A stretch of 27,380 nucleotides of DNA, taken from positions 1-27,380 of the IMG/VR virus record IMGVR_UViG_3300034102_002039; one strand, given 5' to 3'. This DNA comes from a virus. Below, piece after piece: positions 5,793 through 19,729 of the stretch. Made by a program: the position numbers and the translations under genes. The notes beneath the pieces are model-generated. The model saw only the letters and a program-made list of their open reading frames with translations, was not told where the DNA came from and made no database searches. How positions within the stretch are numbered: the first letter of the stretch is position 1; every line of letters begins with the position of its first letter.

Positions 5793-6014
5793 ATGATTGA
5801 AACACGCAAAAGAACAATATGTCGAATGGTTACTTACAGGATTACTGCCTGGAGTTTTACTGTTTTTTGGACATACCTATTTACGAATAACATAGGAAAT
5901 GCTTTCGGATTTGCAACATTACTCCATATATTACTTTCAATTGATTACTACATACACGAGCGGGTATGGCTTAATGTCAAGTGGGGTTTAACAACTGGGG
6001 AAGAAGTAAAATAA
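5793..6014 (+). CDS. DUF2061-type small membrane protein
   Basis: A 73-residue protein with two hydrophobic segments (about 17-30 and 36-51). The N-terminal RKRTICRMVTYRITAW and C-terminal YYIHERVWLNVKWG match the DUF2061 pattern (RK-x-x-K-T-x-x-x-R then YYxHERxW). DUF2061 members are predicted inner-membrane proteins of unknown function, also found in cyanophages. TGAGG lies 9 nt before ATG. Its TAA ends 3 bp before the -35 of the next promoter. Confidence 0.85.
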   Translation: MIETRKRTICRMVTYRITAWSFTVFWTYLFTNNIGNAFGFATLLHILLSIDYYIHERVWLNVKWGLTTGEEVK

Positions 6015-6017
6015 TAC

Positions 6018-6046
6018 TTGACTTTAATTCAATAATACGGTATACT
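6018..6046 (+). promoter_or_regulatory. cassette promoter before the DUF4384 gene
   Basis: TTGACT at 6018-6023, 17-bp spacer of the repeated family (TTAATTCAATAATACGG) and TATACT at 6041-6046. The -10 ends 33 bp before the chosen ATG at 6080. It drives the exported-protein pair 6080-7833. Confidence 0.88.
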
Positions 6047-6079: not shown

Positions 6080-6916
6080 ATGTCCTGCCGCTCAAATAGC
6101 ATCGCCCTGATGCTATCAATCATTGCTGCTTTCCCTGCATATGCAGAGATGGTCCCTGGAAAGGGTGAGTATCTCTATGGACCAGAAACCTCTGAGGCAG
6201 ATGCTTGCCGCACGGCAGAGGAACGAGCAAAGACATCTGCTCTCAGTAGAGTATTTGGTGAGCAGGTTTCCCTTGAACAACAAATGTCTTGCAGAGAAAT
6301 CACTGGTACCAATTCAGACTATAGTTGCGTCATGAATAGTTTGACTTGGTCTTTGGTGGAAGGTGATATCAAAGCAATCACTGCATATAATAAAGTGGTT
6401 GAATCGAGGACCAGTGAGAAATCTTGCACGGTAACTCTAACTGCCGATGTTGTCATCCCAGATAAAAAACCAGACTTGAATTTTCAGGTCAATGCAACAA
6501 TCAATGAAAAGATATATCGTGTCGGTGAATTTCTGACAATGGAATTTGAACCAACTGCACCAATGCATATTGTAGTATTCAACTGGGTGCCACATCAAGA
6601 TAGAAATCTAGTCACACAGATATTCCCCAACCCATCAGAACCGCAGGGGTACATCACCAAAAAGACTTCCATACCAAGTTCAAATAGATTGTCTGATTAT
6701 GCATTCATTATGTTGGATTCTGTTCCCAAGGATAAGAATTTCGTGGACAAGTATCTGATTATAATTGCCACCAAGAAACCAGTGAAGTGGTTATCGAAAT
6801 ATCAACTCATCGAATTGAAGGCAAGGTTGCGTGAGATCCCCGTTGATGAAAGACGAGTCATAAAAAAGGGGTATCAATTGATCCGTGGAGAAAGTAAAGT
6901 GAGTTCCCTACGATGA
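6080..6916 (+). CDS. exported protein with LPP20/FlgT-like N terminus and DUF4384 domain
   Basis: A 278-residue protein starting at ATG 6080, which has ATGAGG 10 nt upstream and follows the promoter; the longer frame from 5981 begins upstream of the promoter and is rejected. Signal peptide about residues 1-22, hydrophobic core IALMLSIIAAF, cleavage after AYA. Residues about 30-130 (EADACRTAEERAKTSALSRVFGEQ) look like the LPP20/FlgT N-terminal fold. Residues about 133-225 match DUF4384: ATINEKIYRVGEFL, then IVVFNWVPHQ, then IFPNPSEP. Four or five cysteines could form periplasmic disulfides. It overlaps the next gene by 4 bp. Related host proteins sit in outer-membrane complexes; the role in a phage is unknown. 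Confidence 0.8.
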   Translation: MSCRSNSIALMLSIIAAFPAYAEMVPGKGEYLYGPETSEADACRTAEERAKTSALSRVFGEQVSLEQQMSCREITGTNSDYSCVMNSLTWSLVEGDIKAITAYNKVVESRTSEKSCTVTLTADVVIPDKKPDLNFQVNATINEKIYRVGEFLTMEFEPTAPMHIVVFNWVPHQDRNLVTQIFPNPSEPQGYITKKTSIPSSNRLSDYAFIMLDSVPKDKNFVDKYLIIIATKKPVKWLSKYQLIELKARLREIPVDERRVIKKGYQLIRGESKVSSLR

Positions 6917-7833
6917 GAATGTTTACACTATTATTCATCTGTCTGATTAGTACTGGTTGTATCTCAACACGGTATATAGAGCGCAGTTCTGAGCACACAA
7001 AACAGAAACCAGAACCAGTTGATACCAACGATTCACTGGGAAATATCTATCATGGAGTGGTTGTCTTTGAATCCTCGGAAGAACTAAAATCAAATCCAAT
7101 ATCCTGTCTGGCAGTATTTCCAGTTACTGCAAAGGATGATGATACGGAAACCGCAGCAATAATTAGAAGTGCACTTCATTCTCAACTTTCAACTACAGGT
7201 ATTCGTCTAATCACATTACAACGAATCGATGCGGTAATGAAAACCACCGAAGGTGTAATTGATGCCACAGCAAAGAAAATTGGTTGCGATAATATTATGG
7301 TCGGTGAAGTGATTGAATCGCCGGAAGCATTCTACGGTATATATTCTGTGATACGTGCCGGAGCAAATATTCAAATTGTAAAGGTATCAACTGGAGAAGT
7401 CCTCTGGCGAGGCAATCACACAGCAAAACTCAGGGGTGGTGGCATTCCACTTGGATTCCTGGACATCGCAATGAATATATTTCATGCTGTAAGAAACCTC
7501 ACCACTGATCAGAAACACAGAGTATCTAGTGATCTTGCTCGGAGACTGGTCACTACAATTCCTGGACTTGAATTCCAAGATGAAATCATACCAACCAAGA
7601 TAGCAATAGATCAAACTCAATATTTACTTCTGCGTGGTGCCATTGATCATGCCAAGATGGGAGAAAACGAAGATGCTGCCAAACAATTGAGACGGGCAAT
7701 GATAGTTGGTATTGCAAAGTCAGACGCACCTTCGGCAAATCGTGCACTGAATTTATTGTATGCCATGAAGTTGACACCATGGATTCCATCCGAGGAGATA
7801 GAGATACTAGAAAACAAAATCAAGAATCTGTAA
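6913..7833 (+). CDS. CsgG/DUF799-like outer-membrane lipoprotein
   Basis: A 306-residue protein. The N-terminal signal ends in LISTGC, a slightly non-canonical lipobox, so lipid attachment at Cys16 is likely but not certain. The middle follows the CsgG/DUF799 pattern: CLAVFPVTA, RSALHSQLSTTGIRL, a KKIGCDNIMVGEV strand, YGIYSVIRAGANIQIV, TGEVLWRGNHTA and GGIPLGFLDIA. CsgG forms the curli export pore; the DUF799 (GNA1162-like) branch is a periplasmic or outer-membrane lipoprotein. The C-terminal 80 residues are helical, TPR-like (ALxxAxxG spacing). ATGA overlap with the DUF4384 gene implies co-expression. Whether it makes a pore cannot be told from sequence alone. Confidence 0.78.
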   Translation: MRMFTLLFICLISTGCISTRYIERSSEHTKQKPEPVDTNDSLGNIYHGVVVFESSEELKSNPISCLAVFPVTAKDDDTETAAIIRSALHSQLSTTGIRLITLQRIDAVMKTTEGVIDATAKKIGCDNIMVGEVIESPEAFYGIYSVIRAGANIQIVKVSTGEVLWRGNHTAKLRGGGIPLGFLDIAMNIFHAVRNLTTDQKHRVSSDLARRLVTTIPGLEFQDEIIPTKIAIDQTQYLLLRGAIDHAKMGENEDAAKQLRRAMIVGIAKSDAPSANRALNLLYAMKLTPWIPSEEIEILENKIKNL

Positions 7834-7840
7834 AATAAAC

Positions 7841-7869
7841 TTTACTCTAATTCAATATTGGAGTATACT
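7841..7869 (+). promoter_or_regulatory. cassette-variant promoter before the LPP20 gene
   Basis: TTTACT at 7841-7846 and TATACT at 7864-7869 with a 17-bp spacer that starts CTAATTCAATA, the shared family sequence. The -10 ends 49 bp before the ATG. Confidence 0.82.
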
Positions 7870-7918
7870 TGTAATTGTAGTATAGTGAAGTATCATTTAT
7901 ATCATATAAGGAAGAACC

Positions 7919-8530
7919 ATGAATATCAATAAAGCAGCAATCTCCTCTGTGGCAGTTATAACTATGTTATCTGCCTGTGCCAGTCCTCAACTGGGAACTC
8001 CTGGTTACGTCACAATGCAAGAAGCAGATCGTCAGACAGCAATCAGCAAGCAAGTACAAGACTCCATTTCAAATGCTCCTGCTTGGTATAAGCAACCTCC
8101 GGTTGATATGAATTCGATTTACGCGGCAGGCAGCGAATTATCCAGCGACATGCAACTATCCATGGATATGGCAACACTGTCATCCAAGAGAGCACTGGCA
8201 TCACAAATCAGTAACCGACTTTCTTCAAAGATGAAAGAGTTTGCAGTTCAGGTTGGTTCCAGCGATGATCCTCAAGTCAATAGAGAGATTGAACGTGTTA
8301 CCAAGAATGTTGTGACTGAAGTGAACCTTGCCGGAGTTGTCCGTGAACGCAGTGAGATTATTCCACAGGGTCGTTTGTTTAGATCATACGTGTTACTTCG
8401 TTATCCACTGGGTGATACCAACCGCATGCTGGTTGAACAGATGAAAAGAAGTTCGGTGCTAGGATCCAAACTTCTTGCTGCCGAGGCATATAAGGATCTT
8501 GAAAAAGAGATTGAATACGCCAGAAACTAG
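7919..8530 (+). CDS. LPP20-family lipoprotein (FlgP-like)
   Basis: A 203-residue protein with a clear lipoprotein signal: MLSAC lipobox, Cys20 modified. NAPAWYKQPP followed by IYAAGSELSSDMQLSMDMA and SSKRALASQISNRLSSKMKEF is the typical LPP20/FlgP layout, and VVRERSEIIPQGRLFRSYVLLRYPLGDTNR completes the domain. Family members are outer-membrane lipoproteins; FlgP forms basal disk or ring structures around flagella in some bacteria. AAGGAAG ribosome site 6-8 nt upstream of ATG. It is third in the exported cluster but has its own promoter. A purely host-like gene in a phage; likely acquired. Confidence 0.85.
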   Translation: MNINKAAISSVAVITMLSACASPQLGTPGYVTMQEADRQTAISKQVQDSISNAPAWYKQPPVDMNSIYAAGSELSSDMQLSMDMATLSSKRALASQISNRLSSKMKEFAVQVGSSDDPQVNREIERVTKNVVTEVNLAGVVRERSEIIPQGRLFRSYVLLRYPLGDTNRMLVEQMKRSSVLGSKLLAAEAYKDLEKEIEYARN

Positions 8531-8533
8531 TCC

Positions 8534-8562
8534 TTGACTTATATTCAATAATAAGGTATAAT
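8534..8562 (+). promoter_or_regulatory. cassette promoter before the 74-residue membrane protein
   Basis: TTGACT 8534-8539, family spacer ATATTCAATAATAAGG, TATAAT 8557-8562, 17-bp spacing. It starts 3 bp after the LPP20 stop codon. Confidence 0.9.
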
Positions 8563-8591
8563 AGTCTTATAACATTGAATAAGGAACAGTA

Positions 8592-8816
8592 ATGACTAGA
8601 ACAAATATCTTAAAATGGGTTGCCACCGCATTCACCTTGGGTGGTGCCCTTTCGGTCTCCCTATCCTGGGAACCATACAACATGATCCTCCTCAATATAG
8701 GGTCAACTCTTTTCCTCATCTGGGGATTTTTAATACGAGATCGAGCAATCATAGCAGTAAATGTGGGGTTGTTATCCATATATGCCTATGGTTTGATCAT
8801 CAGATTTGCCATATAA
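8592..8816 (+). CDS. small three-helix membrane protein, function unknown
   Basis: A 74-residue protein with three hydrophobic segments at about 8-23, 30-46 and 52-70, separated by WEPYN and RDRAI. AAGGAAC lies 7 nt before the ATG and a promoter 29 bp before it. I do not recognise the family with certainty. It closes the envelope-protein group, so a role at the inner membrane alongside the exported trio is possible. Frames overlapping it in another phase (8615-8899) run through the next promoter and are shadows. Confidence 0.75.
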   Translation: MTRTNILKWVATAFTLGGALSVSLSWEPYNMILLNIGSTLFLIWGFLIRDRAIIAVNVGLLSIYAYGLIIRFAI

Positions 8817-16617: not shown

Positions 16618-17004
16618 ATGACCCCATTCGACTTTTTGAAGGCGATCAACGAAACCAAGGAGGACTTATTCGTTGATCCCCAAGCAGAGAAAGACTATTC
16701 TGCCTATATGATAAACAGGGGACTGTCGTTTTTCCCAGATACAATTCTGTATTCAAATATGATGAATCGGTATTCACATATACCCAAAAGATCCCAATAT
16801 CGTTTTCTTATAAATAACGTCATCAAGAGAAAAAGATTCAGTCAATGGCACAAAAAGGACAAAGAGACTGAATCTTTATCTATGGTAATGGAATATTTTG
16901 GGTATTCTTCAGAAAAGGCAAAAGAGGCATTGAAAATCCTTTCCGACACTCAACTTATTATTATTCAAGAAAAACAAAAAAAGGGTGGCAGAAATGACAG
17001 TTGA
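16618..17004 (+). CDS. 62: clamp loader small subunit gp62
   Basis: A 128-residue protein, shorter than T4 gp62 (187) but about the length usual in T4-like cyanophages. TPFDFLKAINETKEDLF, MINRGLSFFPDT, and FLINNVIKRKRFSQWHKK are the typical conserved blocks, and the C-terminal half is a helix-rich ALKILSDTQLIII segment. It is the non-catalytic subunit of the clamp loader. The ATG follows the preceding stop by one base. RegA starts inside its 3' end in another frame. Confidence 0.87.
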   Translation: MTPFDFLKAINETKEDLFVDPQAEKDYSAYMINRGLSFFPDTILYSNMMNRYSHIPKRSQYRFLINNVIKRKRFSQWHKKDKETESLSMVMEYFGYSSEKAKEALKILSDTQLIIIQEKQKKGGRNDS

Positions 17005-19280: not shown

Positions 19281-19400
19281 ATGAAAAAATTGAATAGAGG
19301 AAATCCAGTTGCCAAGGATGTTCGCACTCCAAAGTATCGGATGCGGGTTGTACCAAGCAAGAAGCACAAAATTGATAAACGATTTGAGGAGTCACTATGA
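19281..19400 (+). CDS. 39-residue basic phage protein
   Basis: ATG 19281 to TGA 19398-19400, overlapping the cytochrome c start by 4 bp (ATGA). NRGNPVAKDVRTPKYRMRVVPSKK looks like a small family seen in many tailed phages (N-P-[VI]-A-[KR] then [KR]-[FY]-R-x-R-V-V-x-x-K-K). Role unknown. Strong conservation of the motif and the coupled end support coding. The ribosome site upstream is weak. Confidence 0.7.
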   Translation: MKKLNRGNPVAKDVRTPKYRMRVVPSKKHKIDKRFEESL

Positions 19401-19729
19401 AAATGTATCTAGCAGGAATAGCACTACTCAGCACACTGAGCGGAAATGTGACGGCAAATGAATGCCTAGGATGTCACAAGGTGATTGGCAAAGATATTGG
19501 ACCATCGTTCCTGGATATCTCAAAGGAATATTCTAGTAAAAAAGAACCAGTTAAAACTTTGACGAATATAATTTATCAAGGTTCTGACATGGCAGTTTAT
19601 AATCAAAATCCTGGAACTAATGAAATGGGTGAATTTAATATGTATCGGTTCAACACTACCCCACAGCATGTCAAACTTGATATGAAGGATGCCAAGGCAA
19701 TGGCCGAATGGATACTATCAATCAAGTAA
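19397..19729 (+). CDS. exported c-type cytochrome
   Basis: A 110-residue protein. Signal peptide about 1-20 (LAGIALLSTLSG core, cleavage after VTA). The mature protein starts NECLGCHKVIGKDIGPSF, with a CxxCH heme site at Cys23-Cys26-His27. The second axial ligand is probably Met82 in EFNMYRFNTTPQ, and AKAMAEWILSIK is the C-terminal helix of small class I cytochromes. It would be matured in the periplasm by the host cytochrome c machinery and carry one heme. Ribosome site GAGGAG is 5 nt upstream. The preceding ORF overlaps by ATGA. A respiratory electron carrier in a T4-like phage is unusual. The axial Met is an assignment by eye. Confidence 0.87.
   Translation: MKMYLAGIALLSTLSGNVTANECLGCHKVIGKDIGPSFLDISKEYSSKKEPVKTLTNIIYQGSDMAVYNQNPGTNEMGEFNMYRFNTTPQHVKLDMKDAKAMAEWILSIK

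Follow-up and report, generated by a model that had tools for sequence, protein, structure and literature searches.

Three adjacent genes, here called P1, P2 and P3, occupy positions 6080–8530 on the plus strand of a 27.4 kb virus record from a marine-type T4-like phage (IMG/VR IMGVR_UViG_3300034102_002039, positions 1 to 27,380; this whole stretch is the window referred to below) and encode exported envelope proteins. The original prediction for this DNA had placed an envelope module at this site, and both the adjacency of the genes and the positions of their open reading frames (ORFs) hold. We consider it probable that P1-P2-P3 is a captured module that acts on the envelope of the infected cell, its localisation, assembly, timing and direction of transfer being what we infer. 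The phage would have taken the three genes from an alphaproteobacterial operon and put them under its own early/middle-type promoter. P1 would be secreted into the periplasm, and P2 and P3 would be lipid-anchored, probably on the inner side of the outer membrane. The core pair, P1 and P3, would then assemble below this membrane in the infected cell and change its envelope. The benefit to the phage can be guessed at as the exclusion of superinfecting phages or as an envelope kept intact until lysis.

The three proteins and their promoters

P1 (6080–6916, plus strand; 278 aa) starts with a signal-like peptide, followed by an N-domain (residues ~25–125) and a C-terminal DUF4384 domain. Signal peptides and lipoboxes were assigned here and below from sequence pattern; hits in the Pfam scan of the trio were taken at E ≤ 1, the curated cut-offs being used for calls. 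The match of P1 to DUF4384 (PF14326) has an E value of 7e-6 and, at 26.5 bits, lies just below the cut-off of 27. P2 (6913–7833, plus strand; 306 aa), whose start overlaps the end of P1 by ATGA, is a lipoprotein with the lipobox ISTGC, non-canonical at position -3, and its match to the GNA1162-like family (DUF799, PF05643; 2.5e-4) reaches 21.1 bits against a cut-off of 25.9. Both sub-threshold assignments are confirmed by homologues that exceed the cut-offs. Full-length bacterial homologues of P1 share 29–40% identity with it and two of them lie above the DUF4384 cut-off, which is exceeded in the bacterial loci L115 (31.8 > 27) and L110 and in the viral contig L151. The P2 homologue in L115 exceeds the GNA1162-like cut-off (29.6 > 25.9) and carries tetratricopeptide repeats (TPRs). 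As these repeats swamped the comparison of the full P2 profile with the Protein Data Bank (PDB), the N-domain alone was used, and it matches the crystal structure of GNA1162 (PDB 4HRV, 1.6e-4). On these profile matches P2 is assigned to the GNA1162/DUF799 family, which is the half of its earlier "CsgG/DUF799-like" label that stands.

P3 (7919–8530, plus strand; 203 aa) carries the lipobox LSAC with alanine at position +2. The protein itself has no Pfam match, including to LPP20 (PF02169), but three of 17 relatives match this family (best 2.6e-5) and the bacterial homologue in L115 lies above its cut-off (28.2 > 25.9). An AlphaFold2 model built from 20 sequences (pLDDT 76.9) matches Helicobacter Lpp20 (PDB 5OK8) with a Foldseek probability of 1.00, a TM-score of 0.60 over the target and an E value of 0.0097; it also matches Tip-alpha, and the E values of these matches (~0.003–0.01) are modest. 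P3 is thus predicted to have the LPP20 fold, and its description as an LPP20 lipoprotein is borne out by the model match, the homologue and the lipobox. Among distinct lipoproteins of the P3 family (LPPs), a lipobox was recognised by the same pattern in all 63 whose N-terminus is intact, and in none of them is position +2 an aspartate. In E. coli, the residue at +2 governs the sorting of lipoproteins by the Lol system, aspartate at this position being the exception to outer-membrane sorting. LPPs would therefore be expected to reach the outer membrane.

The N-domain of P1 has no Pfam match. Strand-helix structure is predicted for residues 23–59, and the AlphaFold2 model of the protein was poor (pLDDT 43, too low for a structure search). 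The possibility that the domain is a further LPP20 copy was considered and rejected, because a profile comparison with the LPP family gave no support. Given the failed model and the absence of profile similarity to LPP, the LPP20/FlgT-like label once attached to P1 is unproven, while DUF4384 is upheld through the homologues. For the trio as a whole, PHROGs offered no useful family for any of the proteins, the PADLOC defence models gave no matches, and single-protein sequence searches of the PDB returned chance matches only.

Expression of the trio appears to be controlled by the phage. With up to three mismatches allowed, a sigma70-like promoter motif of 33 bp, TTGACTTTAATTCAATAATA-GGTATAATAGTA, occurs in nine copies in the window (at 6018, 7841, 8534, 8847, 9349, 12016, 12230, 18900 and 19738) with a conserved spacer, against zero copies in 100 shuffles. 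The copy TTGACTTTAATTCAATAATACGGTATACTTGTA lies upstream of P1 (6018–6050, plus strand), a degenerate copy with three mismatches lies upstream of P3 (7841–7873, plus strand), and one with a single mismatch follows the trio (8534–8566, plus strand). Three related contigs (L003, L005 and L006) have close copies; none was found in L007, L009, L010 or L151. The T4-late motif TATAAATA occurs once in the window, at 16809, and not near P1 or P3. Because the sigma70-like motif precedes P1 and P3 and the late motif is not nearby, the trio is probably expressed early or in the middle of infection, a timing that we read from the motifs.

A bacterial operon with the same gene order

A profile scan of genome contigs with the P3 family matched one locus, L110, in a metagenome-assembled genome of Magnetovibrio (Magnetovibrio sp. 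NORP274, G007), where a full-length P1 homologue lies directly upstream of the P3 homologue. Among 385 sampled genomes of the same class, P1 was found in three (G007, G066 and G111) and P3 in the same three, with one additional weak match in G101. Since G007 had been picked through P3, the independent cases of co-occurrence are G066 and G111, in which P3 adjoins P1 or sits one gene away. P1 adjoins P3 in Magnetovibrio and in G111 (L116). Order-level searches around G066 and G101 covered four genomes each.

In the alphaproteobacterial genome G066 (contig C15; L115 8617–5738, minus strand), P1, P2 and P3 follow one another in the same order as in the phage, and in both P1 overlaps P2 by ATGA. 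The operon (L115 5247–12272) encodes, in this order, an exported caspase (Peptidase_C14 with TPRs), a TPR-trypsin HtrA-like protease, P1, P2, P3 and an exported protein of 159 aa. Apparently all the products of this operon in L115, L110 and L116 are exported. The identity of the phage proteins to those of G066 is 40% for P1, 31% for P2 and 40% for P3, and P3 shares up to 52% with its Magnetovibrio homologue (49% in the profile scan). No P2 homologue was found in the operon of Magnetovibrio or G111. The phage trio differs from the G066-type operon in that it comes without the two proteases and the 159-aa last gene, has phage promoter motifs and has lost most of the TPRs of P2, whose long tail in the bacterial homologues (478 aa against 306 aa) is shortened. 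No caspase or HtrA-like protease ORF was recognised beside the trio in the window.

The P3 tree separates the window, the bacteria and the viral contig L151 from the marine phages with a support of 100/99; it is unrooted and the branch of the window is long. It was built without the sequence of phage Mosig (L002), the version that includes it having a very long branch and a support of 83/90.

The P1/P3 pair in other phages

Relatives of P3 are encoded in 268 viral contigs according to a profile scan, and 80 of these contigs were kept. Among cultured phages, a tblastn search with P3 gives matches to Melnitz gp76 (1e-28) and to Mosig (3e-9), and the Melnitz gp76 query also finds HTVC008M; in all three the LPP gene is annotated as "hypothetical protein". 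Within 84 LPP loci, each counted once and with the window left out (71 of them have more than 700 nt upstream), there are 49 P1-type genes. The original prediction had named genes occurring scattered and never together in related phages as the finding that would count against it; all 49 sit 6–376 nt upstream of the LPP start, with a median of 140. A search of 6231 ORFs of the loci with P1 alone gives matches only immediately upstream of LPP, apart from one with E = 0.79, and the best foreign match has a value of 1.5e-9. The loci are not independent, since they reduce to 15 LPP and 12 P1 N-domain representatives at 70% identity. The LPP genes are under purifying selection, the median dN/dS being 0.14 for LPP and 0.36 for the P1 N-domain.

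Melnitz is among the loci with a P1 N-domain just upstream of LPP: its gp74–gp76 region holds the N-domain and the LPP20-type lipoprotein side by side, as in the window. For Mosig 167 and HTVC008M AGE60512 only the lipoprotein is established. The versions in marine T4-like phages differ from the window in having neither DUF4384 nor P2, and many of them have a protein of 44–56 aa with a single transmembrane (TM) segment between the P1-type gene and LPP. Many LPP loci hold T4-type genes (RNase H-like, PhoH-like, gp44, gp45 and CobS clusters), and the window, by reading, contains the T4-type replication genes gp46/47, gp44, gp45, gp43 and a UvsX-like gene, as well as CobS/CobT-like genes. A gene for a Hydrolase_2 cell-wall hydrolase is found in ~30 loci, often directly after LPP, for example Melnitz gp77 (L001:8624–9148). 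At L039:458–757 and in ~22 other loci (cluster c13), an exported protein of 93–125 aa replaces the P1 N-domain beside LPP; it may be a shrunken N-domain, judging from the motif C...ILSAKTEYVCK.

Full-length P1 is much rarer. No match was obtained by tblastn against annotated phages and plasmids or by a single-sequence scan of viral contigs, and a profile scan of viral contigs added one contig, L151, from a second, unrelated phage. On this contig a P1 with DUF4384 above the cut-off is followed by two small genes, then by genes for an LPP20-type lipoprotein, the large terminase subunit and a portal of SU10 type. Within the group of window, bacteria and L151 in the P3 tree, L151 and the window do not pair as sisters, the support at this level being weak (80/77 and 65/78). 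As the arrangement of L151 is not T4-type, the sequences indicate that P1 and P3 either were acquired by phages on more than one occasion or passed from one phage to another. For P2, tblastn against annotated phages and plasmids and both single-sequence and profile scans of viral contigs found nothing, and the gene is absent from every other phage copy examined. A structure library already names LPP20 lipoproteins in uncultured phages and in Campylobacter phage CP8, and one DUF4384 protein in an uncultured phage; in the feature table of CP8, whose proteins were not searched, neither a gene annotated as DUF4384 nor a partner could be recognised.

The claim of a phage-carried module of exported envelope proteins, unlike known virion genes and kept together in phages, is supported, but that account was incomplete: it missed the probable origin in a bacterial operon with a caspase and an HtrA-like protease, the wide spread of the core pair, and the probable separateness of the small membrane protein that follows the trio. 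This protein, P4 (8592–8816, plus strand; 74 aa), is present as described, matches DUF6552 above the cut-off (Pfam, 7.2e-10) and is weakly SemiSWEET-like. It is conserved beside P3 or CobT in L003 and L005 and is probably a neighbour with its own promoter motif, the copy at 8534, rather than a member of the module. Another small membrane protein, with DUF2061, is encoded directly ahead of the trio (5793–6014). Farther along the window, at 19397–19729, the phage encodes a cytochrome c-like exported protein with a CxxCH motif.

Possible roles in the infected cell

By the features tested, the trio belongs neither to the curli system nor to FlgT-FlgO-FlgP, the two assemblies to which it had been likened. 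FlgP and FlgT have the same SHS2-like fold as Lpp20, with ring formation linked to an insert that is a β-hairpin in FlgP (PMC12222027). The P3 model has a helix (residues 118–133) at this insert, between the helix and the second strand, where Campylobacter FlgP has the ring-forming hairpin. The model shares the SHS2-like fold with Vibrio FlgT, but neither FlgT nor FlgO was matched in the Pfam scan of the trio, so that the LPP20 fold is all that is common with FlgP and FlgT. As for curli, CsgF and CsgA/B were not recognised on reading the ORFs around the trio, no model search for them having been made on the window, and no CsgG (PF03783) match was obtained.

A further parallel is T5 Llp, which, like related phage lipoproteins, faces the periplasm from the outer membrane, as expected here, and acts in superinfection exclusion (PMC9586334). 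Llp is a single small FhuA-binding protein (PMC9586334); P1–P3 are larger and of other families. The shield, the pore and the changed adhesion first proposed for the trio are guesses. Because other phages use periplasm-facing lipoproteins in this way, superinfection exclusion is our first guess for the benefit. Stabilisation of the envelope, help to a nearby cell-wall hydrolase and interference with the host caspase/HtrA system are the alternatives.

The last of these can be phrased as a decoy or inhibitor: the trio would consist of the non-enzymatic parts of a host periplasmic caspase/HtrA system, binding and disarming that system. The exported Peptidase_C14 caspase and HtrA-like protease of the bacterial operon, neither of which was found beside the window trio, match the PADLOC caspase and protease models; DUF4384 occurs elsewhere in orthocaspases (PMC7475262), and the loss of most TPRs from P2 would also fit. 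However, a defence function of the bacterial operon is without support, P1–P3 match no defence model, and the pair of P1 and P3 is also present in an OM43 phage and LPP in SAR11 phages, which makes this role unlikely. The broader version is a long shot: phages would have captured, time and again, the half of a periplasmic caspase/HtrA system that is envelope-anchored and not proteolytic, to counter the system or re-purpose it. If this were true, periplasmic caspase operons would serve bacteria as a defence or a death switch, against which phages have a dedicated counter-measure.

A lysis accessory, with the outer-membrane lipoprotein and a small membrane protein acting in a spanin-like manner or aiding a cell-wall hydrolase, would make sense of the TM protein between P1 and LPP and of the neighbouring Hydrolase_2 gene in marine phages. 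The N-termini of LPPs match spanins weakly, and a lysis role has been proposed for the CsgGF of Melnitz, a different gene set (PMC9004378). In the window, however, the genes are not separated by such a TM protein and no hydrolase lies alongside, the LPP20 fold is predicted to be globular, the promoter motif is of the early/middle type, and the operon of the bacterial homologues contains no lysis genes. Such a role is therefore very improbable for the trio.

Proteins of the GNA1162 type are considered to be distantly related to the CsgG/LpoB group, and P2 has a weak LpoB match (0.012), so that a CsgG/curli-type export pore formed by P2 with helpers was also weighed. True CsgG and CsgF are present elsewhere in Melnitz and in the CobT-related record G003, and in a contig of the latter (the contig of L010; L029 618–2769) csgG has csgF-like and curlin-repeat-like neighbours. 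The csgF-csgG-csgA/B genes of pelagiphages (type VIII secretion system) are likewise outer-membrane genes that derive from bacteria and are carried by phages of this broad group (PMC7029224, PMC9599517, PMC9004378); they have no detectable homology to P1–P3, and in Melnitz CsgG-CsgF is separate. For P2 itself, the Pfam scan gave no CsgG match, the profile comparison with phage CsgG returned a probability of 1% from shallow alignments, and the stretch matching the first membrane hairpin of CsgG is shorter by eye. P2 is also missing in all the other phage copies examined. The CsgG part of its label is not supported, and the pore is highly improbable.

Several points weigh against a captured envelope module. 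The full trio is found in one phage contig only, and the independent contig L003 starts at the C-terminus of P3 and runs onwards from there. The model of P1 is poor, a transfer that ran from bacterium to phage is deduced from an unrooted tree and from the greater size of the operon in bacteria, and the hydrolase encoded nearby in ~30 marine loci, Melnitz included, leaves room for a role on the side of lysis. The single occurrence might suggest cargo that is passive or was gained recently, or else a chimera made in assembly, but this is scarcely credible: L003 independently links P3, P4 and CobT, its last 50 codons of P3 having three nucleotide differences in 150 nt and no amino-acid change, which argues against a chimera at the P3–P4 end; phage promoter motifs both flank the region of the trio and occur inside it; and the core pair is widely conserved under purifying selection.

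The LPP20 and DUF4384 domains have already been annotated in phages; what is added is the pairing of P1 and P3, its spread and the bacterial operon as a probable source. A literature search for LPP20 lipoproteins in phage genomes returned nothing relevant. The passages found in the literature on these phages discuss CsgG/CsgF, and the Melnitz paper makes no mention of LPP20 or lipoproteins. The analysis thus identifies a previously unnamed envelope gene pair in abundant marine T4-like phages, cultured ones included, and ties it to a bacterial operon that is absent from the discussion in the literature found. From its sequences, the trio looks like an overlooked phage means of remodelling the envelope of the infected cell. 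This bears on the question whether the outer membrane of infected cells is reshaped by lytic marine phages through non-curli means, which the cultured phages allow to be tested.

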